From Candidatus Anstonellales archaeon (GTDB lineage Archaea > Micrarchaeota > Micrarchaeia > Anstonellales > CG1-02-47-40), in assembly GCA_038869735.1 (NCBI GenBank), contig JAWCQO010000003.1, positions 1 to 64,000 of the forward strand: a stretch of DNA of 64,000 bases, read 5' to 3'. Shown here piece after piece: positions 225 through 12,843 of the stretch. Below the pieces are notes generated by a model, which was not told the origin of the DNA, ran no database searches, and saw only the letters and a program-made list of their open reading frames with translations. The position numbers were made by a program, and so were the translations under genes. Within the stretch, counting starts at the first letter, position 1. Each line of letters opens with the position of its first letter.

Positions 225-1556
225 TCACTTCTTTTTCGCCTTTTTATTTTTCATGTCTATAACTTCTCTTATAATTTCCTTCATTAAATCTAGTGTTCTG
301 AGGCCTTCCACCGTCTCCCTCAAGTGGAAGGGGTCCAACCTACCGGCCTTTACAAGCTCATCAACCATTACAAGCGCCATCAGGTTGAGTTCCTCTGGTG
401 TTTTGCCTATCAACATACTTTTGTTTTCCAGGCCCCAAACCCAAAACTTAAGCCGCAACAAATAAGCCTCTTTCATGCTTTCACCAGTTGCAAAAAATAT
501 GTTTTTGATATTAGGGTCAAACTCAATAAGACAATCGATGAGTTCTACATCCTTGTTGTTCTTTGTTATCTTACTCTTCTTTACAAGCTGATGATAAGCC
601 CACACGACCTCATAATCATACCACCTATACAAAGCCTCCATCTTATGAAAATCAGTAGGCATACTCTCTATTTCATTTAGCCTTTTTTGCATTATATTGA
701 CATCAAGGAGCTCTTCAGGGGACTTAATGCTTAGTTGATAAGTGATGGGCGAATAATACTCGTGTATCTTTGCTTCAAGCTCTTTTTCAAACCACTCTGG
801 TATTGCCTTCTTGCCTTTGTCCTTCTTGCCTTTGTCCCTCTCGCCTTTGCTTTCGATTCTGTGCCTGTTTTCACAAGCCCAGAGACAGACCTTCAACATT
901 GCAGCCCTTTCCCTTCTCCAACTTGGCCAGTCAATCTTAAGGAACATAATCCTCTCAATTTCTTCAGCTGAGTAGAACTCCTTCGTCCGAGCCACATCTG
1001 AACAGAATCCTATCCTTTCATCCAGCTTTTGAAGTACAAGGTCAATGACAGGGTCCCTGCGTCTTATTGCAGATTGATATAGAGTGTAACCCCACCCCAA
1101 ATCATAAAGGTCAAAACAATACAGCGCATAGTGTTCCTTTTTTCTAAAAAAATCACTCATCTCTTCAAAATACCAACTTATGGGCCAGTCCTTTTTCATT
1201 ACATCTTTTATATAGCTTCCTGCCTTTTCAATTGAATCTGCTTCTGCTTCAAGACGGGCTATTTCTCTTTTAAGGCTATCCGGGCTGGTTAAGAATTTTA
1301 GAAGATAATCCTCTATCTTCTTTATTCCCTCCTTTTTGCTTTCATCCAAAAGATTTGAGATTACCTTAGCATCTGCATACTTCTTTGAACAGCCAACACT
1401 TCCAAAGATAATTAAAGAAGCAGCAATTCCAGCTACCGCAGTTTTTCCTGCGCTTCTGAGCACTTTTTCAAACTTTCTTTTAAAATAGCTTTTGTTTGAT
1501 TGAAGGTTGGGATTGAACTGGCTTTTTCCATGTTGGAGATTTTGGAATGCCACCAT
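225..1556 (-). CDS. Lipoprotein paralogue A, internally repeated, unknown function
   Basis: I do not recognise this 443-residue protein. It starts with a basic segment whose first 29 residues are identical to those of the gene at 5963-7594. A hydrophobic stretch (about 37-55) then ends in a lipobox-like GSVGC with Cys56, so it is probably a membrane-anchored lipoprotein. Two tandem modules are visible. Each runs from an ALY aromatic-rich segment to a K-x-x-x-W-x-x-E-N motif (about 143-230 and 308-378). Residues 256-298 (FEKELEAKI to KRLNEIE) and 369-378 (LKFWVWGLEN) match the twin gene, while the remainder has diverged. A lysine-rich linker lies near 235-251 and the protein ends in KKK. Promoter and start codon lie inside a perfect inverted repeat, and the TATA-like box about 26 bases before the ATG suggests a leaderless transcript. 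Function unknown; surface location is inferred from the signal sequence. Confidence 0.8.
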   Translation of the reverse strand: MVAFQNLQHGKSQFNPNLQSNKSYFKRKFEKVLRSAGKTAVAGIAASLIIFGSVGCSKKYADAKVISNLLDESKKEGIKKIEDYLLKFLTSPDSLKREIARLEAEADSIEKAGSYIKDVMKKDWPISWYFEEMSDFFRKKEHYALYCFDLYDLGWGYTLYQSAIRRRDPVIDLVLQKLDERIGFCSDVARTKEFYSAEEIERIMFLKIDWPSWRRERAAMLKVCLWACENRHRIESKGERDKGKKDKGKKAIPEWFEKELEAKIHEYYSPITYQLSIKSPEELLDVNIMQKRLNEIESMPTDFHKMEALYRWYDYEVVWAYHQLVKKSKITKNNKDVELIDCLIEFDPNIKNIFFATGESMKEAYLLRLKFWVWGLENKSMLIGKTPEELNLMALVMVDELVKAGRLDPFHLRETVEGLRTLDLMKEIIREVIDMKNKKAKKK

Positions 1557-1601
1557 AGCTCTATATTATAAGGATAACGTATTTTAAATCTTTCTATAAC
1601 A
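1470..1601 (-). repeat. 132-bp perfect inverted repeat, left arm
   Basis: This is the exact reverse complement of 5918-6049 as far as I can read it. It contains the promoter (TATA-like TTTAAAATA on the minus strand near 1581-1589) and the first 29 codons of the gene at 225-1556. Identity ends abruptly within codon 30. Perfect identity including non-coding bases points to recent gene conversion or active recombination between the arms. Confidence 0.93.
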
Positions 1602-1665
1602 GGTGATGAGAGCATAATGGAGATTTGGATGGAGTTATGCTTTTTGGGCCTTCAAATATCTTGCT

Positions 1666-1714
1666 CTTAGATTAAAGATAAAGGCAGAATCGAAATTGGC
1701 TTGGAGTGCCAGAA
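1666..1714 (+). repeat. 49-bp inverted repeat, left arm
   Basis: Matches the reverse complement of 8038-8086 with three differences. It lies just upstream of the large gene starting near 1782. The right arm lies beyond the 3' end of the paralogue at 5963-7594. The pair may mark the old boundary of a duplicated or inverted segment, or a shared upstream region of a lost second copy of the large gene. Confidence 0.85.
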
Positions 1715-1781
1715 GATTAGAAGATTTATTATGTCCACTGACAGTAGGTTTTTTATTTCTAAATTTAAAAGCCATTATTGT

Positions 1782-4700
1782 ATGAAGATAAAAAACCTTC
1801 TCTTTATCTCTCTTTTTCTTGTTTCTCTAATCTTTTCATTAAATCGTTCTGATCCATGTTTTGTGCCTGACGTTCCGACAAAGATAATTCCGATTCTTGA
1901 TACGGACAACGGCAGGTTAAGCCTGCAAGTGGTAACTGAAAAACGGGATCAGCAGGGAAGGGTTTCTTATGAGTGGTTTTCTCCAAATGACAGCGTGAGG
2001 GCAACAATCTTTATCTACCACAACAAAATAAATTCCGCTGACGGAATTACGCAGGACGATTTGATTTGGAGAGTTGAAACTGATTATTATGGATTTGTTT
2101 CTCTTCCTCTTGGAGAAAGAATAAATTTTGACAGCTCAAAGGCGTCAACCTACACTTTCGTTTATTGCTATGGCTTTACAGAGCCAAAAAGGCTTGCAAA
2201 ATGCCTCTATCTTCCAGACCGAAATAAAAACCCTATAGAGGAGATAAATTATGCGGATATAGCAATTATATACGGTTTTGACTCTTCAGGGAATCAGATG
2301 ACTCAAGGTTCGCCTCCTTCCTGTGACTTGCCAGATTCTTGCGCTGGAAATCTTGATTCTCTTGCCTCTACATATGCAAAATGGAGTTATGAACCTCCGA
2401 GAAAGGAATTTAATCTTGGGGTTTGCATGATGGTTTCAATCCTACTCTCGCTTCTTTTAGGAGCTATGTTTATGAGAGGGGAAGACCCCCTTAGGTTCTG
2501 GGACATTACTACTACACGATTTTCAAGGGGAAGAGCCTATCAGATGAGATTGAGGTCAAAACTGGACCAGACTCAGGCGATTGTCGGAGCTGCTCTTCAG
2601 GTCAGCGGAGCAACCGAAATCGTGAAGGGCCACGCTGTTAAAGGATTGAAAAAGATGGTTGGCTCGTTTGGAGATATTTCTAAAATATCTGAGAAGGCTA
2701 GTAGGGTTTCTCAACGCGCACCGGGACAACAAACAAGTGGAGGCTCTGATGGAGGGGGTTCTCAACCCGAAGGGGAGGGACAAACAATAAATGGAGGCTC
2801 TAAGATAGGGGGTTCTAAACTCGAACAGCGACAATCAAGACCATTCACTGAATGGATGAGCAAGCCTTATTCAGGCTCAGGACAGTTGATTACTTTCTCT
2901 CTTCTTAGAGCCGGAGTTAATTTATTAAGAGGAGATAAGAAGAAGGCAAAAGATATCATTAAGGATGCATTTACCAGTAAAACGCCGACAGCAAAAGAGA
3001 CACTAACTCTTGTTTTTGATAGATTATGGGGCAGAATTCAACCTGAGCTAAGTGCTTGGATTGCTATGAATACGACTGGAAAAGATAGCGGCATCGGATT
3101 TATGCTGAGCAATCTTGCTGCGGAGGTGGGCACAGGAGTCATCGATCGTGAAACTATAACGCTTGCAGCCAATATTGCTTTTCTAAGTGAAGAGAATATA
3201 AAAATAATGGAGATAAAGTCCGAAAACGCAAAAAACGAGTTAGAAAAGAAGGGCTTGGTAGGTGCATTTAATAAAGCTAAGGAGATGCTGACGGATCCTG
3301 CTAGGTCTTTTGATGTTGATGATGTAATCAATGAACTCGAAAAGGATGGTTTGAGTAAGGAGGATGCGATACTGGTGACGGCAATTGCTTTGGTAGATAT
3401 CGTTCTAACAGCAATAGGAAATCAGGACGAAGGAATCAGGTATAAGAAAGAGAACCTTGAGAAGGTAGGAATAGCGCTTAAAAAAATTGATGACGAAGCT
3501 AAAAAGATTAGAGAAGAGATAAATAAGAGTCTAGATAATGTTAACTTCGATAGCATTTTGAAAAGTACGGAAGACCTCTTAAAGGCGACACGCGAAGTAG
3601 TCGGGGACAGGTATTTGGAGGTACTTAAATTAGTTAAGGTGCGCGACCAACAAAGCCTTGAAGTGACTGAAAAGAAAATCAAAAGTGAAGAAGAACAACA
3701 AAATGTAAGAGAGGAAAAGAAAGAAGAAGACACTATTCCTTACCTCATAAGGGCAATATCGATACTTAGAGAAAGGAGTGAGTTTATAAGGCAACACCAT
3801 AAGGAAATAAAAAAGTGGATGGGCATAAATCTTGCAGATGAAGATACGCTAAGAGCTGTTGAGGGCATTGATGAGTATTTGCCGGAAGGAAGACAAGTCT
3901 TGCTTGGTAGTCTTCTGCTTGCTGATTATGCTAATCTTAAGGTGAATGAGGGCGATTGGAAAGCTCTTGAAGCGTCTTTTGCCTTGAATAGCGCATTAAA
4001 GCATCTTGTTGATGCTAAGAAATACAGGAAACGCAAGGAGTCAGAGGCATTTCAAAAAGAATTGCGTGGTTTACTAACTTCTCTTTTTATTTATTACCAT
4101 AAGGGGGATAGCCTCGGAAAAGCAACGATAAGAACAGAGGTTCCTGGAGAGAAAATCACGCGGAGGATATATGATTTTCAATCATTATTTTCTACCCTTG
4201 ATAGGATGCCTCTGATTCCATCAACCAGAAGTGGTTTAGAATCTCTTAAAATGACGCTTGAAAAATATACAACTGGAGCAATTTCTTCAGATGAGCTAAA
4301 AAAATCGATGGAAGAAAATAGGGTATTTGGCTCAACCACAAAAGCGCTAAGAAAATTAGGGTATTTGGACCGCCTTGACCTTGCAAATGACGTATATGAC
4401 CAGTATTACTTTTCGCAATGTTCGCTAATAATAGCACGCTTTGGAGAGCCAATAGGAGAGAGAGTTGTGGAACTTATAACTGAGGAGCGGGACGGAAAGC
4501 TACAGATAAATCTATCAAAACTGGAAGCCCCACGCCTTAAACTAGGAAAGATGATGAAAGTTGAGGACTGGGAGGGGAAGCTAAAGGAGCAGGATTATGT
4601 CAGTACAAAAGAAATAATGGCTGACTTAAGTAAGTTGTCAAAGCCAAAAGAGATTAGTGAAGAAAAACCAAGTAAAGTAGAAAAGACGGAAAAGCGCGTA

Positions 4701-5855
4701 TCGACTTTAAACCTGATTTCTGTCTATTTATCCTTGTTAAATGCATATAAAAGCCGGCTTGAAACAGAAAAACAAGTGAAAGCGCTGGAGAAAAGAATAA
4801 TGCGATTGGAAAGGTTAGCGGGAACTGTTAGGCTTGAAAATCAGCCTAGTCTGCAGGAAAAGATATCTTCAGCAAAGAACACTTATAATATTATTAAGAG
4901 TGGTTTTGAAAAGGCAGGCGACTATGCTAAAATATTAGAGGTAAAGAAAGGAGAACTTCTTGGTTTCCTACATAGAGAGTTTAGTAGTGAAGAGGAGTAC
5001 AATAAGAGCCTTGAGGATGTGGTTAAAACAACGCGCAACTCAGAACTTTATTGTTCTATCTATCAACAAATAATCGATATAATTGAGATTGCCAATGTAA
5101 GCTATAGAGATGGAAGATGCACAATAGATGGAAAAAACGCTATAAAATTGGTTGAGAATGGGATAATGCCTGCAAATATTGGGATTCTTAACACAAGCGA
5201 GGAAATAATTAAAGCCGAATCACTGTTGGGTCATCCCCCAAGACTAACTCTTCTTAGCTTTATTGATGAAGCAATCCTACGGTCCTTTTCTACTAGCCCT
5301 CCAACTACAGGAGATATATTTAGGAACATACTTGCATCGATAGAAGGAACAATGCCTGTAGCATGGGCAAAAGTACTACTAACTCGAAGGATGACAAAAG
5401 AGGAGGAGATGGAGTTGGGAAGCAGTTATTCGCTCTTTTTTAATGGACTCTTAAATCTAAAGGAGGGAATAGAAGATGGCAAATGGGATTATGAGTTGAT
5501 GGATAATTACAAAAAAATGAGAAGTAAGATACTTTTTGCCAAGGAGCTTTACAGGGAGGGCATTGAACTTTCAAAAAGGTCTGGAATTAGCCAAGAGGCA
5601 ATAAGAGATGCGTTTGGAAGTTTTGACAAAATGGCTATGTCTAACATAAATGTGGCAGATGAGGGAGTTAAGGAGGAGTTGAGGAAACTGATTTTGTCTT
5701 ACAACATATATTACCCAAACCCCCCTGAAACTTTAGAAGGAGCAGAAGAGGAACTAAAGGAAAAGACTATTGAATATTTAAAAACAGGTAAGTCCGAAGA
5801 ATATGCTAATTACATTAAAAGCTACGAGAACTACGAGAGTCTGTTGCCAAAATGA
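1782..5855 (+). CDS. Giant membrane-anchored protein, unknown family
   Basis: I do not recognise this protein of about 1357 residues. The frame is open from a TTG at 1701, but I prefer ATG 1782 because it begins a clear signal or membrane segment (MKIKNLLFISLFLVSLIF). Counting from 1782, about 170 extracytoplasmic residues with several cysteines follow, then a second membrane segment near 213-231. A linker rich in Gly and Ser (about 319-346) is built from two imperfect copies of an 18-codon unit. The remaining thousand residues are charged, helical and coiled-coil-like, with no enzyme motif that I can see. Two membrane crossings suggest that this long part is cytoplasmic, if the first segment is not cleaved. 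It lies between the two divergent lipoprotein paralogues and inside their inverted repeats, which suggests that the three genes travel and work together. Confidence 0.8.
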   Translation: MKIKNLLFISLFLVSLIFSLNRSDPCFVPDVPTKIIPILDTDNGRLSLQVVTEKRDQQGRVSYEWFSPNDSVRATIFIYHNKINSADGITQDDLIWRVETDYYGFVSLPLGERINFDSSKASTYTFVYCYGFTEPKRLAKCLYLPDRNKNPIEEINYADIAIIYGFDSSGNQMTQGSPPSCDLPDSCAGNLDSLASTYAKWSYEPPRKEFNLGVCMMVSILLSLLLGAMFMRGEDPLRFWDITTTRFSRGRAYQMRLRSKLDQTQAIVGAALQVSGATEIVKGHAVKGLKKMVGSFGDISKISEKASRVSQRAPGQQTSGGSDGGGSQPEGEGQTINGGSKIGGSKLEQRQSRPFTEWMSKPYSGSGQLITFSLLRAGVNLLRGDKKKAKDIIKDAFTSKTPTAKETLTLVFDRLWGRIQPELSAWIAMNTTGKDSGIGFMLSNLAAEVGTGVIDRETITLAANIAFLSEENIKIMEIKSENAKNELEKKGLVGAFNKAKEMLTDPARSFDVDDVINELEKDGLSKEDAILVTAIALVDIVLTAIGNQDEGIRYKKENLEKVGIALKKIDDEAKKIREEINKSLDNVNFDSILKSTEDLLKATREVVGDRYLEVLKLVKVRDQQSLEVTEKKIKSEEEQQNVREEKKEEDTIPYLIRAISILRERSEFIRQHHKEIKKWMGINLADEDTLRAVEGIDEYLPEGRQVLLGSLLLADYANLKVNEGDWKALEASFALNSALKHLVDAKKYRKRKESEAFQKELRGLLTSLFIYYHKGDSLGKATIRTEVPGEKITRRIYDFQSLFSTLDRMPLIPSTRSGLESLKMTLEKYTTGAISSDELKKSMEENRVFGSTTKALRKLGYLDRLDLANDVYDQYYFSQCSLIIARFGEPIGERVVELITEERDGKLQINLSKLEAPRLKLGKMMKVEDWEGKLKEQDYVSTKEIMADLSKLSKPKEISEEKPSKVEKTEKRVSTLNLISVYLSLLNAYKSRLETEKQVKALEKRIMRLERLAGTVRLENQPSLQEKISSAKNTYNIIKSGFEKAGDYAKILEVKKGELLGFLHREFSSEEEYNKSLEDVVKTTRNSELYCSIYQQIIDIIEIANVSYRDGRCTIDGKNAIKLVENGIMPANIGILNTSEEIIKAESLLGHPPRLTLLSFIDEAILRSFSTSPPTTGDIFRNILASIEGTMPVAWAKVLLTRRMTKEEEMELGSSYSLFFNGLLNLKEGIEDGKWDYELMDNYKKMRSKILFAKELYREGIELSKRSGISQEAIRDAFGSFDKMAMSNINVADEGVKEELRKLILSYNIYYPNPPETLEGAEEELKEKTIEYLKTGKSEEYANYIKSYENYESLLPK

Positions 5856-5917
5856 AGCTACGGCCTAAAAATGGGAGTGCGGAAATAAGCAAATGCCTTT
5901 AAGCTCTAATTGATAAT

Positions 5918-6049
5918 TGTTATAGAAAGATTTAAAATACGTTATCCTTATAATATAGAGCTATGGTGGCATTCCAAAATCTCCAACATGGAAAAAGCCA
6001 GTTCAATCCCAACCTTCAATCAAACAAAAGCTATTTTAAAAGAAAGTTT
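5918..6049 (+). repeat. 132-bp perfect inverted repeat, right arm
   Basis: Reverse-complement partner of 1470-1601. It carries the promoter and first 29 codons of the gene at 5963-7594. The two arms enclose 4.3 kb that contains the giant protein gene. Recombination between them would flip that gene while leaving both flanking genes attached to intact promoters. Confidence 0.93.
5930..5963 (+). promoter_or_regulatory. Shared archaeal promoter, leaderless start
   Basis: The TATA-like TTTAAAATA at 5930-5938, preceded by a purine-rich BRE-like GAAAGA, is centred about 28 bases before the ATG at 5963, the spacing expected for a transcript that starts at the initiation codon. The identical sequence occurs inverted at 1556-1589, so the two paralogues should be expressed alike. 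No Shine-Dalgarno motif precedes either ATG. Confidence 0.6.
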
Positions 6050-7594
6050 AAAAGTCTCCTCTTAACAGCAATTGCTCCTGCGTGTTTGCTGTTGTCTACG
6101 CCTTCTTTTTCTCAAAATTCAGGAAAAAGCCAACAAGCCACAAATCAAACATCGGTAGAGAAATCATCAAATAAAGACATAACCAAGGCACACTCATTTG
6201 GTGAATCCATGGCCGAGCCTCTTTTGAAGATGTATCTTGAAAAGGCCATGGAATTAAGAAAGAAAATAAGAAAGGAAAAATCGATGAGTAAAGAAGATTA
6301 TGCTGAATTTTTACAGTCGTTCAAAATGGCAGTTACTGGTTTTGAATTCATTACAGCGATGGGTGATTCTCTTCAAGCAAAGCTCAAAGAACACTTAACT
6401 ACACCTCCTTCTAATACTGGCATACTCTCCCCCTATGGTTTTAAACTCCCCTATGCATATTCGGTTATCTGGCCAGGCATGCTGACGGGGATCTACCTTA
6501 GTCCAGAGGAGTCATGGTACATATTGGCATATACTCGCAACCAACCAAGTTATATAAAAAGAGGGATTCTCTTTTATGATCAATTTACTAACATCCCTCA
6601 ATTTGTTAAGGCACCAGCAGAATTAGAGCCTTTTTTAAAATTGACAGGCTTGACGCAAATGGACCTGCTTTGGATAATAACAAATGAATCAGCAATAAAA
6701 CCAGCGTATGAGGATTACATTAAGATGAAGGAGAAGGAAGAAGAAGACAAAAAAGACACGTTGAAGGTACTTTTAATGTCGAAAATTAAAGATTATCTAT
6801 CCTATCATCCATACAAATTATTTGATGATATTCCGTTGAAGAAGCTAATTGCAAAGTCCAAAGCCTTTATTTGGTTTCTTGAAAATGCGCCTGCAGTTGA
6901 GAGCAATAGAAGCACATTCCCTCAGTTTGAAAAAGAGCTTGAAGCAAAGATACGCGAGTATTATTCGCCAATCACTTATCAACCAAGCATTAAGTCAGCC
7001 GATGAAGTCCTTGATGTCAATATAATGCGAAAAAGGCTAAATGAAATTGAGAATGATGTACACCTACACCCAGACAATGTAACCGAAGCCCTCTACAGAT
7101 TCTTTGAATCTGATGCAAAATACGCACTTTACCTTACCAGCACTTCCAACTCTGAAGAGTATAAAAATAAGCATGCTCTCTTGTCCTCGCTATTTAGCAT
7201 TTTGCCTACCTCGTTTTATCCATTCTACAAGCCATATGCTCCAACGCTGTATGAAATAATAAATAAGATTATATACGACAACCTAAGCTATAACTCAATA
7301 TTATCTTCAATTGAGTACGAGTCATGGCAGAACATCCCATACAGTATGTCACCATATCACTTCCACTACCGGCCTTTAAAATTGATTGACCTGAAGTTTT
7401 GGGTTTGGGGCCTGGAGAACGCAAATCTTCTTAGGGGACTGGATGAGTATCAGCTCAAAAAATTAGCTGCTACAAGATTTGCAGAGATGATACGAAATGG
7501 CGAAATTCTCGATTACAAACTTCTAGCTCGCGACAAAAGAAGAATAGAGGAATGTTGGGAGATTCTGATGGATAAGACTATCAAGAAAAAATAG
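5963..7594 (+). CDS. Secreted paralogue B, mosaic twin of the 225-1556 gene
   Basis: A 543-residue protein that I do not recognise. Residues 1-29 are identical to the minus-strand twin. A different hydrophobic core follows (about 31-46), ending either in SFSQ, a signal-peptidase-I-like site near 50, or in a lipobox-like APAC at 38-41. The centre is unrelated at a glance, but residues 322-363 (FEKELEAKI to KRLNEIE) and the LKFWVWGLEN block are nearly the same as in the twin, and the protein again ends in KKK. A K-x-x-x-W-x-x-E-N motif appears twice (around 300-308 and near 480), so the internal two-module plan is conserved. Alternating identical and divergent blocks suggest recombination or diversifying selection. 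Probably exported; function unknown. Confidence 0.8.
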   Translation: MVAFQNLQHGKSQFNPNLQSNKSYFKRKFKSLLLTAIAPACLLLSTPSFSQNSGKSQQATNQTSVEKSSNKDITKAHSFGESMAEPLLKMYLEKAMELRKKIRKEKSMSKEDYAEFLQSFKMAVTGFEFITAMGDSLQAKLKEHLTTPPSNTGILSPYGFKLPYAYSVIWPGMLTGIYLSPEESWYILAYTRNQPSYIKRGILFYDQFTNIPQFVKAPAELEPFLKLTGLTQMDLLWIITNESAIKPAYEDYIKMKEKEEEDKKDTLKVLLMSKIKDYLSYHPYKLFDDIPLKKLIAKSKAFIWFLENAPAVESNRSTFPQFEKELEAKIREYYSPITYQPSIKSADEVLDVNIMRKRLNEIENDVHLHPDNVTEALYRFFESDAKYALYLTSTSNSEEYKNKHALLSSLFSILPTSFYPFYKPYAPTLYEIINKIIYDNLSYNSILSSIEYESWQNIPYSMSPYHFHYRPLKLIDLKFWVWGLENANLLRGLDEYQLKKLAATRFAEMIRNGEILDYKLLARDKRRIEECWEILMDKTIKKK

Positions 7595-7624: not shown

Positions 7625-7658
7625 GAAGCTAGAATATGGGACTATAAAATAAAAATAC
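7625..7658 (+). repeat. 34-bp direct repeat, copy 1
   Basis: GAAGCTAGAATATGGGACTA and the bases that follow recur at 7708-7741 with two differences; the copies start 83 bp apart. Both lie just downstream of the paralogue at 5963-7594. Each ends in an A/T-rich ACTATAAAATAAAAATAC. Confidence 0.85.
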
Positions 7659-7707
7659 GCCGGTCCTTTTGCAATATTACTTACAGCGCTCATTAACACG
7701 TTAGCAA

Positions 7708-7741
7708 GAAGCTAGAATTTGAGACTATAAAATAAAAATAC
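7708..7741 (+). repeat. 34-bp direct repeat, copy 2
   Basis: Second copy of the repeat at 7625-7658. Whether the pair is a recombination scar or an RNA-level signal cannot be decided from two copies. Confidence 0.85.
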
Positions 7742-7814
7742 ACTGGAGCCGTCGAATTCTCTTTTGTTGCTTAATTTGAATAAACTGGTAAATGGCGCCT
7801 ATCAGAAGGAAAAC

Positions 7815-7978
7815 AAAAAAAGAGAAGAAAGAATAAAAAAGCAAAAATAAAAAAGCACCGGTCTAGAGGCCTCTCTTTATTCCCCCCATCACTTCTTTTT
7901 CGCCGTTCCACTTCGTGTTCTTTCCGCCATTTTTCCATCATGCCGCTACAATTGCCCCTAAAAATCACTTCTTTTTCG
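7815..7978. repeat. 164-bp direct repeat, right copy
   Basis: Same sequence and orientation as 1-164, so the whole locus of three genes is bracketed by direct repeats 7.8 kb apart. Recombination between them would delete or amplify the locus. Confidence 0.9.
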
Positions 7979-8030
7979 CCGTTCCACTTCGTGTTCTTTC
8001 CGCCATTTTTCCATCATACCGCTACAATTG
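7890..8030. repeat. 76-bp tandem repeat, nearly two units
   Basis: The unit begins CACTTCTTTTTCGCCGTTCC; copy one is 7890-7965 and copy two starts at 7966 and runs to about 8030. Copy one has CATGCC where copy two has CATACC. The left locus copy at 1-164 has only one such unit, so unit number differs between the two ends of the locus. Read on the minus strand, each unit carries the KKK-stop end of the paralogue family. Confidence 0.85.
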
Positions 8031-8037
8031 TTCTCCA

Positions 8038-8086
8038 TTCTGGCACTCCAACCCAATTTCGATTTTGCCTTTATCTTTAAGCTAAG
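8038..8086 (-). repeat. 49-bp inverted repeat, right arm
   Basis: Reverse complement of 1666-1714 with three differences. It marks the right limit of homology with the accessory locus; housekeeping genes begin just after it. Confidence 0.85.
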
Positions 8087-8107: not shown

Positions 8108-8404
8108 CTAGTATCCAAACATCTCATCTAATGCTCGGTTTATGCTGTCACTTGATATTTTATATCCGGAATCCTGCCCGGACTCGTATACATCTTTTTT
8201 CTCCTCTTCACTACTTTTTTCAAAGTCGCTTCCTACCTCCTTCCTTTCGCCGCCTTGCATCGAAACTACGCTGATATGCAATACATTCCCACACGACCGA
8301 CACGTTCCGGAAGCAGTCAACTCGTCTATGTTCATATCAGATGAGAAGTCTAGGCTTATGTAAGCTCCACACGAACACCTGAAGCTCTTTTTTATAGTTG
8401 GCAT
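8108..8404 (-). CDS. Small zinc-ribbon-like protein, unknown function
   Basis: About 98 residues from ATG 8404. An N-terminal FRCSCGAY and a later CRSCGNVLH give two cysteine pairs (about residues 10-12 and 36-39) able to bind one metal, followed by an acidic, Ser/Glu-rich and probably flexible half. The open frame extends to a GTG at 8479 for an extra 25 residues. Each candidate start has its own TATA-like box at a leaderless distance, because the promoter is duplicated in tandem. I prefer the ATG because the zinc ribbon then begins near the N-terminus. It could be a transcription-related or regulatory zinc protein, but there is no family match I can name. The gene follows glmS on the same strand. 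Confidence 0.6.
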   Translation of the reverse strand: MPTIKKSFRCSCGAYISLDFSSDMNIDELTASGTCRSCGNVLHISVVSMQGGERKEVGSDFEKSSEEEKKDVYESGQDSGYKISSDSINRALDEMFGY

Positions 8405-8410
8405 ACTGCA

Positions 8411-8449
8411 GAATACTTTGTTGATATATAAAAACCTACTCCTTACTCT
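8411..8449 (-). promoter_or_regulatory. Promoter repeat, proximal copy
   Basis: A 39-bp sequence with TTTTTATATATCAA on the minus strand (8421-8434), about 25 bases before ATG 8404. It repeats at 8490-8528 with two differences, giving a tandem promoter. Confidence 0.6.
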
Positions 8450-8489
8450 TGGCTTCTCGGTTATAGCCCCAAGTGACACGCTACAGCGG

Positions 8490-8528
8490 GAATACTTTGT
8501 TGATATATAAAAATCTACCCCTTACTCT
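8490..8528 (-). promoter_or_regulatory. Promoter repeat, distal copy overlapping the glmS stop
   Basis: Second copy of the 39-bp promoter repeat, overlapping the last codons of glmS. Its TATA-like box is about 25-30 bases before the alternative GTG at 8479. The pair could drive two forms of the downstream zinc-ribbon protein. Confidence 0.55.
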
Positions 8529-10282
8529 ACGGTTACAGACTTTGCTAGGTTTCTCGGCTTGTCCGGGTCTCTTCCAAGAAGTACCGCCATGTAGTAGGAC
8601 AGCATCTGGAGAGGAACAGCATAAATTATTGGTGAAAACAACGGCTTTTCTAGCGTCGGCATTCTAAAAAAAACATCGCAGGAGGAAAGAATCCTGGAGG
8701 AATCAGAAAACCCCACAACGGTTGCGTTTCTTGCCCTACACTCTTGTATATTTGATAGAATTTTTTGTGTTGTGTCATCCTCCGGAGCAATGGCTATTAC
8801 ACAAACTCCTTTATCAAGGAGAGACATCGGACCGTGTTTTAGCTCTCCTGCCGGATAACCTTCAGCATGAAGATAGGTTATCTCTTTAAGCTTAAGCGCA
8901 CCTTCCAAAGCTATTGGATAAGATAGTCCCCTTCCTATAAAAAAGAAATCCCTCATCTTCGACAGCATCTTTGCAAGTTTCTTTATCTCTCCTTCCTTTG
9001 TAAGGATTGCGCCCAAAACAGCAGAGAGGTCTTTTAGCTGTTCAGCACAATCCTCATTCTTAATAAGCAACCATGCCAACCTATACAAAACAACCAGTTG
9101 CGAAGTAAAACTCTTTGTTGCAACAACCGATACCTCAGGTCCAGCACCAATATAAACACAGGCATCAGCTTCTCGTGAAAGAGAACTTCCAACGACATTT
9201 GTGATTCCTATTATTTTCGCACCTTTTCTTTTTGCTTCCCTGACAGCAAGGAGCATATCCGCCGTCTCTCCCGATTGGCTTATTGCAATGACAACGTCTT
9301 TTTTTCCAAAGAAATCAGCAACGTATTCTGAGCCTATAATCGCTTCACATCCTATACCATGCCGTGCTAATAGCCCCTTAAAAATAAGCGCAGCGTGATA
9401 AGAAGTTCCGCAAGCAACCAAGAACAATTGGCGGATTTCATTTTTAGTCAGAATCTCGCCTGCAGCCCTTATATCTGCTGCAATAGCTGCTCGTATGGTG
9501 TTTTGCTGTTCTACTATCTCCTTTAGCATGAAATGAGGATATCCATCTTTTTGCGCCATCTGTGGCGTCCACTCAATGTGCACAGGCTTCCTCTTTATCC
9601 TCGTTCCGTCAAATCCATAAATTGCGTACGTGCTGTCAGTGATTTCAGCCCATTCATCCTCGGCCAAAAATACAAAATCACGTGTTCTTGAAAGAAATGC
9701 CGGCACATCTGATGCAAAAAACATTTCGTTTTTTCCAACTCCAACTACAAGGGGTGAGCTTCTGCGTGCTCCATAAAGCTTCCTTTCTCCCTGATGCATA
9801 ACAACAAAAGAAAACGAACCCTCAATCCTTCTTATAGCAGAGAGAAATGCATCTTTAAATCCTTTTCCTTCTCTAAGCCCACGCGCTATAAGATGCGCAA
9901 CAAGCTCCGTATCAGTCTCAGATTTTATCTTGCATCCACTCTTCAAGAGTTCATCCTTTAACTCCAGAAAATTTTCAATAATCCCATTATGAACAAGACA
10001 AACCTCCCCTCTTTCATCGGTGTGAGGGTGCGCATTCATGGCGTTTACCCCGCCGTGGGTCGCCCATCTTGTGTGTCCTATCCCTATTGTCCCTTCAAGG
10101 CGCGAAAAGTCGTGCTTTTTCTCTATTTCTTCCAGCTTTCCAACGTCCTTTATTATATTTATCTTTGAGCCCATAACAGCTATCCCTGCTGAATCGTATC
10201 CTCTATATTCAACATTTTTTAGAGCTTCAAGAATTACCAAAGAAGCTTTACTACTACCAACATAGCCAACAATTCCGCACAT
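8522..10282 (-). CDS. glmS: Glutamine-fructose-6-phosphate aminotransferase
   Basis: Makes glucosamine-6-phosphate from fructose-6-phosphate and glutamine, the first step toward UDP-GlcNAc. The 586-residue protein begins MCGIVGYVG, giving the catalytic N-terminal Cys of the class II glutaminase domain (about 1-220). Two SIS sugar isomerase domains follow (about 260-586) with the family motifs SQSGETADML, SVVATKSFTSQ and the C-terminal KPRNLAKSVTVE. Length is close to the bacterial and archaeal norm. A purine-rich GAGAGGT lies just before the ATG. Its product would feed the UDP-GlcNAc-derived sugars made by the glycan island at 45-60 kb. Identification is firm. Confidence 0.97.
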   Translation of the reverse strand: MCGIVGYVGSSKASLVILEALKNVEYRGYDSAGIAVMGSKINIIKDVGKLEEIEKKHDFSRLEGTIGIGHTRWATHGGVNAMNAHPHTDERGEVCLVHNGIIENFLELKDELLKSGCKIKSETDTELVAHLIARGLREGKGFKDAFLSAIRRIEGSFSFVVMHQGERKLYGARRSSPLVVGVGKNEMFFASDVPAFLSRTRDFVFLAEDEWAEITDSTYAIYGFDGTRIKRKPVHIEWTPQMAQKDGYPHFMLKEIVEQQNTIRAAIAADIRAAGEILTKNEIRQLFLVACGTSYHAALIFKGLLARHGIGCEAIIGSEYVADFFGKKDVVIAISQSGETADMLLAVREAKRKGAKIIGITNVVGSSLSREADACVYIGAGPEVSVVATKSFTSQLVVLYRLAWLLIKNEDCAEQLKDLSAVLGAILTKEGEIKKLAKMLSKMRDFFFIGRGLSYPIALEGALKLKEITYLHAEGYPAGELKHGPMSLLDKGVCVIAIAPEDDTTQKILSNIQECRARNATVVGFSDSSRILSSCDVFFRMPTLEKPLFSPIIYAVPLQMLSYYMAVLLGRDPDKPRNLAKSVTVE

Positions 10283-12258: not shown

Positions 12259-12843
12259 CTAAAATGCCATAAGTGCTGATATTCCTATGACAAGAAGCCA
12301 TACTTTCCAATCCCAAGCCAGTACTTTGCTTCCATCCAATGGAAATATCGGAATCATATTAAAGAAAGCAAGAAATGAATTTACATATGCACCAAGAATC
12401 GCAATTCGCTGTAGCGTGTTGCTTGGGGCTATAACCGAGAAGCCGACAAAGATTAATGCAAGAATGATATTTGTAACTGGTCCGGCAACTGAAATTATCC
12501 CATTCTGTCTTCGTGTTATATGGGGGGAATATATCCAAACCGCACCAGGAGCAAGAAAAAGAAAACCTATCGGAAGAATTGCCATCACAAGCATAAGGAC
12601 AAGTCCGGTTGGCCATGCCCTAAACTCAGCCCACGCCCCATATCTCATGGCTACAAACTTATGCGCAAGCTCATGCAAAACAAATCCAGTTCCAACAGTT
12701 ATTGTAAAGACACCCATAAAAAAGATAAATGTTGGCGGCTTTATTCCAAGCCCTCCACCTTCATGAAATGTCAACGCTAATGATATTGCAAGAACAGACA
12801 CCGCAATATTGACTATCTCCTCAACACTGATTATAGATCTCAT
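12259..12843 (-). CDS. M50-family membrane metalloprotease
   Basis: A 194-residue multispanning protein. The zinc-binding HELAHKFVA (about residues 57-65) sits in one membrane helix, and NMIPIFPLDGSKV near 161-173 supplies the third metal ligand, the layout of site-2-type intramembrane proteases. The short N-terminal helix and absence of PDZ or CBS domains match compact archaeal members. The substrate is unknown; such enzymes usually cleave membrane-bound regulators or signal peptides. It is cotranscribed with bud32 judging by the 10-base gap. Confidence 0.88.
   Translation of the reverse strand: MRSIISVEEIVNIAVSVLAISLALTFHEGGGLGIKPPTFIFFMGVFTITVGTGFVLHELAHKFVAMRYGAWAEFRAWPTGLVLMLVMAILPIGFLFLAPGAVWIYSPHITRRQNGIISVAGPVTNIILALIFVGFSVIAPSNTLQRIAILGAYVNSFLAFFNMIPIFPLDGSKVLAWDWKVWLLVIGISALMAF

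Follow-up and report, generated by a model that had tools for sequence, protein, structure and literature searches.

Results

A probable lineage-specific insertion carrying a relocated giant gene

The stretch of DNA analysed here (the window, 64,000 nucleotides) is the first 64 kb of a 128,117-bp contig, C3, of a Candidatus Anstonellales archaeon, whose genome assembly amounts to 884 kb in 15 contigs and is 96.85% complete. Close to its left end, a gene for a giant membrane protein stands between two inverted paralogs, gene1 and gene2, and a perfect 132-bp inverted repeat covers the start of both. We think that this locus is probably a lineage-specific insertion of about 8.4 kb in which homogenised inverted paralogs surround a relocated giant gene, inversion of the giant being at most a by-product. 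An earlier note on this DNA had read the repeats as a possible invertible segment, with the look of phase variation or of continuing gene conversion; gene conversion and the geometry of a flip were upheld, and phase variation found no support. The giant's relocation and the insertion itself are more informative results than the question of whether the arms invert. The genes concerned are:

C6 67093-67887, + strand: HAD phosphatase gene, left border of the insertion
225-1556, − strand: gene1, 443 aa, an ORF and orphan paralog that can be aligned with gene2 along its length; predicted to be secreted or lipoprotein-like
1731-5855, + strand: giant membrane-protein gene, about 1374 aa, alternative start at 1782; apparently the relocated ortholog of a 1862-aa gene of G001
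5963-7594, + strand: gene2, 543 aa, an ORF; predicted secreted orphan paralog
8108-8404, − strand: zinc-finger-like gene, right border of the insertion; its ortholog in G001 overlaps the 3′ end of the HAD gene
8522-10282, − strand: GlmS gene (Pfam SIS and GATase), conserved flank in synteny with G001

The main comparison genome was Candidatus Micrarchaeota archaeon CG1_02_47_40 (G001), a family-level relative and the only one from the same family among the genomes searched; G008 served as a further comparison. In G001 (C11), the genes for TRAM, GlmS, the zinc finger, HAD, a 664-aa protein and a 334-aa protein are contiguous in this order, with the zinc-finger and HAD genes overlapping by 11 bp at their 3′ ends, and in G008 only 25 bp lie between HAD and GlmS. 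The flanks of the block keep the genes and order of G001 (TRAM 70%, 665-aa protein 35% and 337-aa protein 59% identical), and GlmS and HAD are 56% and 54% identical to the orthologs of the relatives. Because the relatives have HAD and zinc finger/GlmS joined and the flanking synteny is kept on both sides, this comparison shows about 8.4 kb, consisting of 253-bp direct repeats around gene1, the giant and gene2, as an apparent insertion between the HAD and zinc-finger genes. An uninterrupted site with conserved flanks, as expected for a lineage-specific insertion, is thus present in both G001 and G008.

The insertion of the whole block had been overlooked in the earlier note, as had the fact that the window begins at a contig end, inside the left direct repeat (R1). 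The contig break runs through R1: the final 124 bp of C6 match 7726-7849 in the right direct repeat (R2), and C6 ends with the same 35 bp with which C3 begins. Across the junction the order is 337-aa gene, 665-aa gene, HAD phosphatase, R1, gene1, giant, gene2, R2, zinc-finger gene and GlmS, and the flanking synteny supports the join independently of the repeat overlap. No transposase or integrase was found inside the block, whose three ORFs match no such Pfam or NCBIfam family; it therefore lacks the gene that would mark it as a transposon or insertion sequence.

The best relative of the giant is the 1862-aa protein of G001 (phmmer, 270 bits), whose gene has the 23S rRNA gene on one side (L047 301-6363) and a Cys-rich gene on the other (L047 from 15775). 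The window genome has the ortholog of that Cys-rich gene (586 bits) at C5 24223-28518, 223 bp from the 23S rRNA gene at C5 21083-23999, and the giant is absent between them and is found on C3. This comparison shows the giant as apparently relocated, with both the donor and the acceptor site visible in one comparison genome. Most of the other relatives that were read have a giant sharing the N-terminal domain of this one and placed right after a gene of about 1300 aa, before which there are usually several genes of about 350 aa; we infer the direction of the move from this conserved arrangement. The donor site on C5 holds no scar that matches the cassette above chance, and no relatives of the giant protein were found in IMG/VR. 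No clear TATA-like hexamer was found at the expected distance from the giant's start.

Two further observations touch this gene and its surroundings. The 23S rRNA gene of G001 (L047:301-6363) extends over about 6 kb, against 2987 positions in the model, and several small ORFs inside it resemble, by appearance, intron-borne homing endonucleases. A cluster that recurs in Micrarchaeota (C5:24223-35735, C4:34822-41956, L102-L115) consists of several ~350-aa genes, a ~1300-aa gene that is often Cys-rich, and a giant of 1000-2100 aa with a conserved N-terminal domain; the parts tested gave no Pfam matches. The window genome has a second giant of this cluster, on C4.

Perfect inverted arms at the starts of gene1 and gene2

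The earlier note had described identical arms that include promoter bases, and this was borne out: 1470-1601 is the reverse complement of 5918-6049 at 132/132 bp, and each arm consists of 45 bp upstream of the start codon and 87 coding bp (29 codons).

1470-1601, − strand: left inverted arm, gene1 core promoter and first 29 codons
1583-1588, − strand: TATA-like hexamer TTTAAA of gene1, at −32
5918-6049, + strand: right inverted arm, gene2 core promoter and first 29 codons
5931-5936, + strand: TATA-like hexamer TTTAAA of gene2, at −32

The immediate divergence outside the arms that had also been claimed is nearly right: on the inner side, facing the giant, identity drops at once to 17-30%, and on the coding side it is 70% in the 30-bp bin that contains the border, with background beyond. 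A whole-genome search found no further copies of the arm. A self-comparison of the 884-kb genome (E<1e-5) gave five same-contig inverted pairs, the arm pair being the longest, and three of the five sit at this locus (136 bp at 99.3%, 128 bp at 91% and 49 bp at 94%). By our estimate, exact inverted matches in a random sequence of equal size would reach about 19-20 bp at the longest, so a chance origin of the 132-bp arms is excluded.

In both arms TTTAAA begins 32 bp before the start codon, where the genome-wide peak of such hexamers lies (−32 to −28); therefore gene1 and gene2 share an identical core-promoter-like region within the arm. A recombinase-type dyad in the arms was rejected, since 198 of 200 shuffled sequences score as well and none stands above chance. 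The leader has no conserved RNA structure (z −0.34), and no known RNA family was found in the first 12 kb.

Evidence for DNA copying between long-diverged paralogs

Gene1 and gene2 align along their length at about 27% identity with many gaps, and segments of gene1 are the only relatives of gene2 within the genome. Two internal blocks are shared in addition to the arm:

665-792, − strand: island 2, gene1 copy, 117/128 identical to 6925-7052, in frame, 31/35 codons identical
6925-7052, + strand: island 2, gene2 copy, counterpart of 665-792
423-452, − strand: island 3, gene1 copy, 28/30 identical to 7391-7420, in frame
7391-7420, + strand: island 3, gene2 copy, counterpart of 423-452

The order and the reading frame of all three islands agree between the two paralogs. 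Taking only residues identical in both proteins, we compared codon agreement with the expectation from genome codon usage at synonymous saturation. Outside the islands 32 of 70 codons agree (27.1 expected, P=0.13), whereas all 28 comparable codons agree in the arm (12.3 expected, P=1.5e-11), 31 of 35 in island 2 (14.8 expected, P=4e-9) and 6 of 8 in island 3 (P=0.04). Constraint on the protein alone is insufficient for the islands, because synonymous sites would then be saturated there as elsewhere; copying of DNA between gene1 and gene2 after their divergence explains them. Synonymous identity confined to islands of otherwise saturated paralogs is what gene conversion leaves, and the test thus favours the continuing conversion that the earlier note had offered as one reading. 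Since island 2 has 11 differences in 128 bp and the arm has none, island 2 appears older than the arm, suggesting more than one copying event.

Among 301 genomes of the phylum, no convincing relatives of gene1 or gene2 were found (one weak partial match), and there were none in IMG/VR; neither gene matches a Pfam family at cut-off or an NCBIfam family. Their products appear to begin with a long basic N-terminal region that leads into a signal-peptide-like stretch, and gene1 carries the lipobox-like sequence FGSVGC. A relationship to the 209-aa gene that adjoins the giant in G001 was rejected, as no link was found. An AlphaFold2 model of gene2 was unusable (pLDDT 38).

What an inversion would do, and the machinery for it

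A crossover in the arms would reverse 1602-5917. As the earlier note had proposed from the geometry, both outer genes would stay whole: gene1 and gene2 keep their start codons and core promoters, and the giant takes its own upstream region (1602-1730) along. RadA is present in the genome. Because both core promoters lie inside the arms, a flip would turn off neither outer gene. Its main effect is predicted to be on polarity, the giant then being read toward gene1 rather than gene2. Between the giant and gene2 there is no run of five or more T, so read-through from the giant into gene2 would be possible.

Phase variation, the other part of that proposal, is not supported, given that the arms hold the promoters of the outer genes and no dyad, and that no intact site-specific recombinase was found. 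Local and genomic site-specific recombinases were both rejected as candidates. No serine recombinase and no intact tyrosine recombinase was found in this 96.85% complete assembly, so that their absence is not final; the sole tyrosine-type match, on another contig (C11 10845-11299), is split between two frames. Of the features of an inverton, the locus has the inverted repeats flanking a segment; it has no intact dedicated tyrosine or serine recombinase anywhere in the genome and, judged by its sequence, no change of active gene or promoter upon inversion. An occasional RadA-type inversion of the giant segment would still be possible. A literature search for inversion or phase variation in Micrarchaeota found no paper combining these, and a survey of 209 datasets saw no inversion in the six archaeal samples that it included (PMC5903667). 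The 191-bp exact direct repeat broke the assembly and the 132-bp arms did not, which weakly suggests that one orientation of the arms dominates.

Discussion

Taken together, these results are probably best explained as follows. Comparison shows that a block of about 8.4 kb has entered the chromosome between the convergent HAD-phosphatase and zinc-finger/GlmS genes, that the giant membrane-protein gene has left its usual operon and now sits between ancient inverted paralogs, and that short islands, namely the promoter with 29 codons and the internal 128-bp block, were copied between these paralogs long after their divergence. The copying presumably took the form of RadA-type gene conversion, through ectopic homologous recombination of one inverted paralog with the other, which would also keep the arms identical. 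Now and then the same recombination may end in a crossover that flips the giant, as an unprogrammed by-product. Several points weigh against this explanation. The insertion and the relocation are seen mainly against one comparison genome, that of a family-level relative; the arms would look the same if 132 bp had been copied from a template just once, recently, when the rearrangement took place, with no continuing conversion; strong DNA-level selection on promoter and leader must still be reckoned with, as no convincing orthologs were found in the 301 genomes of the phylum; and the synonymous test presumes genome-average codon usage.

The first of the alternatives is compatible with the proposed insertion and homogenisation, and extends them: RadA-type recombination in the arms would flip the giant at low frequency, with no dedicated enzyme and no regulation. 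Perfect arms 4.3 kb apart, the presence of RadA and the intactness of the genes after a flip are in its favour, as are inversions between terminal inverted repeats (TIR-TIR inversions) at 9% of insertion sequence (IS) loci in Wolbachia (PMC3004938), but no flipped molecule or flipped relative was seen, no genome of the same genus being among those searched, and the assembler settled the arms in one orientation even though it broke at the 191-bp direct repeat; we regard low-frequency flipping as rather doubtful. On the unlikely side, too, is a one-off templated duplication, in which the rearrangement that delivered the giant also made an inverted copy of the 132-bp promoter-leader and exchange did not continue. 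The borders are indeed rich in short near-exact duplications (116 bp at HAD, 191 bp exact in R1/R2, a 76-bp unit), and the inner edge of the arm is the edge of the giant segment, but islands 2 and 3, far from the junctions, were copied as well, apparently at another time.

A programmed system, phase variation or recombinase-driven gene shuffling at the arms or the internal islands, would yield chimeric paralogs or switched read-through from the giant. Although three in-frame blocks shared by inverted paralogs with variable segments between them do recall the layout of hsdS (PMC4948785), the arms have no dyad, no intact site-specific recombinase was found, no inversion has been observed, and on/off logic is missing where both outer genes retain start codon and promoter, which makes such a system very improbable. 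If crossovers did occur at the three blocks, they would make the locus a shuffling system of an archaeal chromosome, swapping variable segments to give chimeric predicted secreted proteins somewhat as pneumococcal hsdS inversion does, and each one would also flip the giant to read towards one paralog or the other, but this would be quite surprising. Least credible is that the assembler produced the arms or their arrangement. The assembly is fragmented, with breaks at repeats and overlapping contig ends about 94% identical; however, each of the four sides of the arms adjoins a different unique sequence, within open reading frames, synteny with G001 is found on both sides of the block, and a misassembly at the arms could merely flip the segment. 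A misassembly that misplaced the giant was rejected, because each arm joins a coding side to a promoter side and only a flip could result.

Among known systems, the locus behaves most like ectopic gene conversion between inverted paralogs, with which it shares diverged paralogs, synonymously identical islands, inverted orientation and RadA; here, however, the paralogs stand on either side of a relocated giant gene unrelated to them, and identity is most perfect in the island of promoter and leader rather than in the gene body. Inversions between the ends of IS in Wolbachia (PMC3004938) likewise involve inverted repeats around a segment that flips by homologous recombination without a dedicated switch, whereas here the three ORFs match no transposase family, the arms lie in host-type genes and an inversion has yet to be observed. 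The pneumococcal hsdS locus Spn556II, with repeats of 15, 298 and 85 bp (PMC4948785), also has inverted paralogs with several common repeats and variable segments between them, and the three shared in-frame blocks fit that pattern. A silent partner without promoter or start is not part of our locus, where both paralogs have a start codon and the hexamer, a giant unrelated gene occupies the middle and there is no recombinase; because of this last point and since inversion was not seen, we do not claim membership in the hsdS kind.

Two archaeal systems are instructive. In the haloviruses phiCh1 and phiH1, a gene for a XerD-type integrase lies between the repeats, and inversion uncouples one gene from its start codon (PMC6210493). 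Their tail-fibre inversion resembles our locus in having two related genes inverted around an invertible centre, but here there is no central integrase gene and a flip would uncouple no gene from its start codon. The integrase of the Thermococcus plasmid pTN3 inverts DNA between segments down to 104 bp (PMC5495485), and by this analogy 132-bp arms may be long enough for some enzymes; these inversions between short segments require an active plasmid integrase, however, and none was found intact here.

Inversion-prone repeats have hardly been described on archaeal chromosomes. In this small Micrarchaeota genome a conserved giant gene has apparently left its operon for an insertion that is rich in repeats and flanked by inverted, homogenised paralogs. 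For an uncultured lineage this offers a concrete case, open to testing, of how an operon breaks up, together with ectopic gene conversion and possibly inversion. It also calls for caution, as a perfect inverted repeat is not in every case a phase switch.

Repeats at the borders and elsewhere in the assembly

The borders of the insertion carry the following repeats:

1-164, + strand: direct repeat R1, right part, 99.4% identical to 7815-7978; its left part is formed by the final 124 bp of C6
7726-7978, + strand: direct repeat R2, 97.6% identical to the joined R1 over 253 bp, with 191 bp exact at 7751-7941
7964-8030, + strand: second copy of a 76-bp-spaced unit, 67 bp, 98.5-100% identical to 7888-7954 and 74-140
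1666-1714, + strand: 49-bp element upstream of the giant, possible promoter region, with a 94% inverted copy at 8038-8086
8038-8086, − strand: inverted copy of the element upstream of the giant, 94% identical to 1666-1714

Smaller repeats were seen beside these. At the left border, 116 bp from the end of the HAD gene occur as two exact tandem copies (C6:67798-68028). Directly downstream of gene2 and adjoining R2 is a 39-bp direct repeat (7625-7663 and 7708-7746, 90%), and another of 39 bp (8411-8449 and 8490-8528, 95%) surrounds the beginning of the zinc-finger gene and the 3′ end of GlmS. Between the two copies of the latter repeat lie 38 bp (8451-8488) that recur in inverted orientation, at 95% identity, at 12407-12444.

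Elsewhere in the assembly, two pairs of contig ends match at only about 94% identity (C14:9878-10236 with C6:1-359, and C5:78618-78817 with C2:165-364), suggesting strain variation or unjoined repeat copies. Long tandem-repeat arrays with an offset of about 102 bp are common to C7:32685-35516, C7:58261-61222 and C11:1-1676, partly at contig ends.

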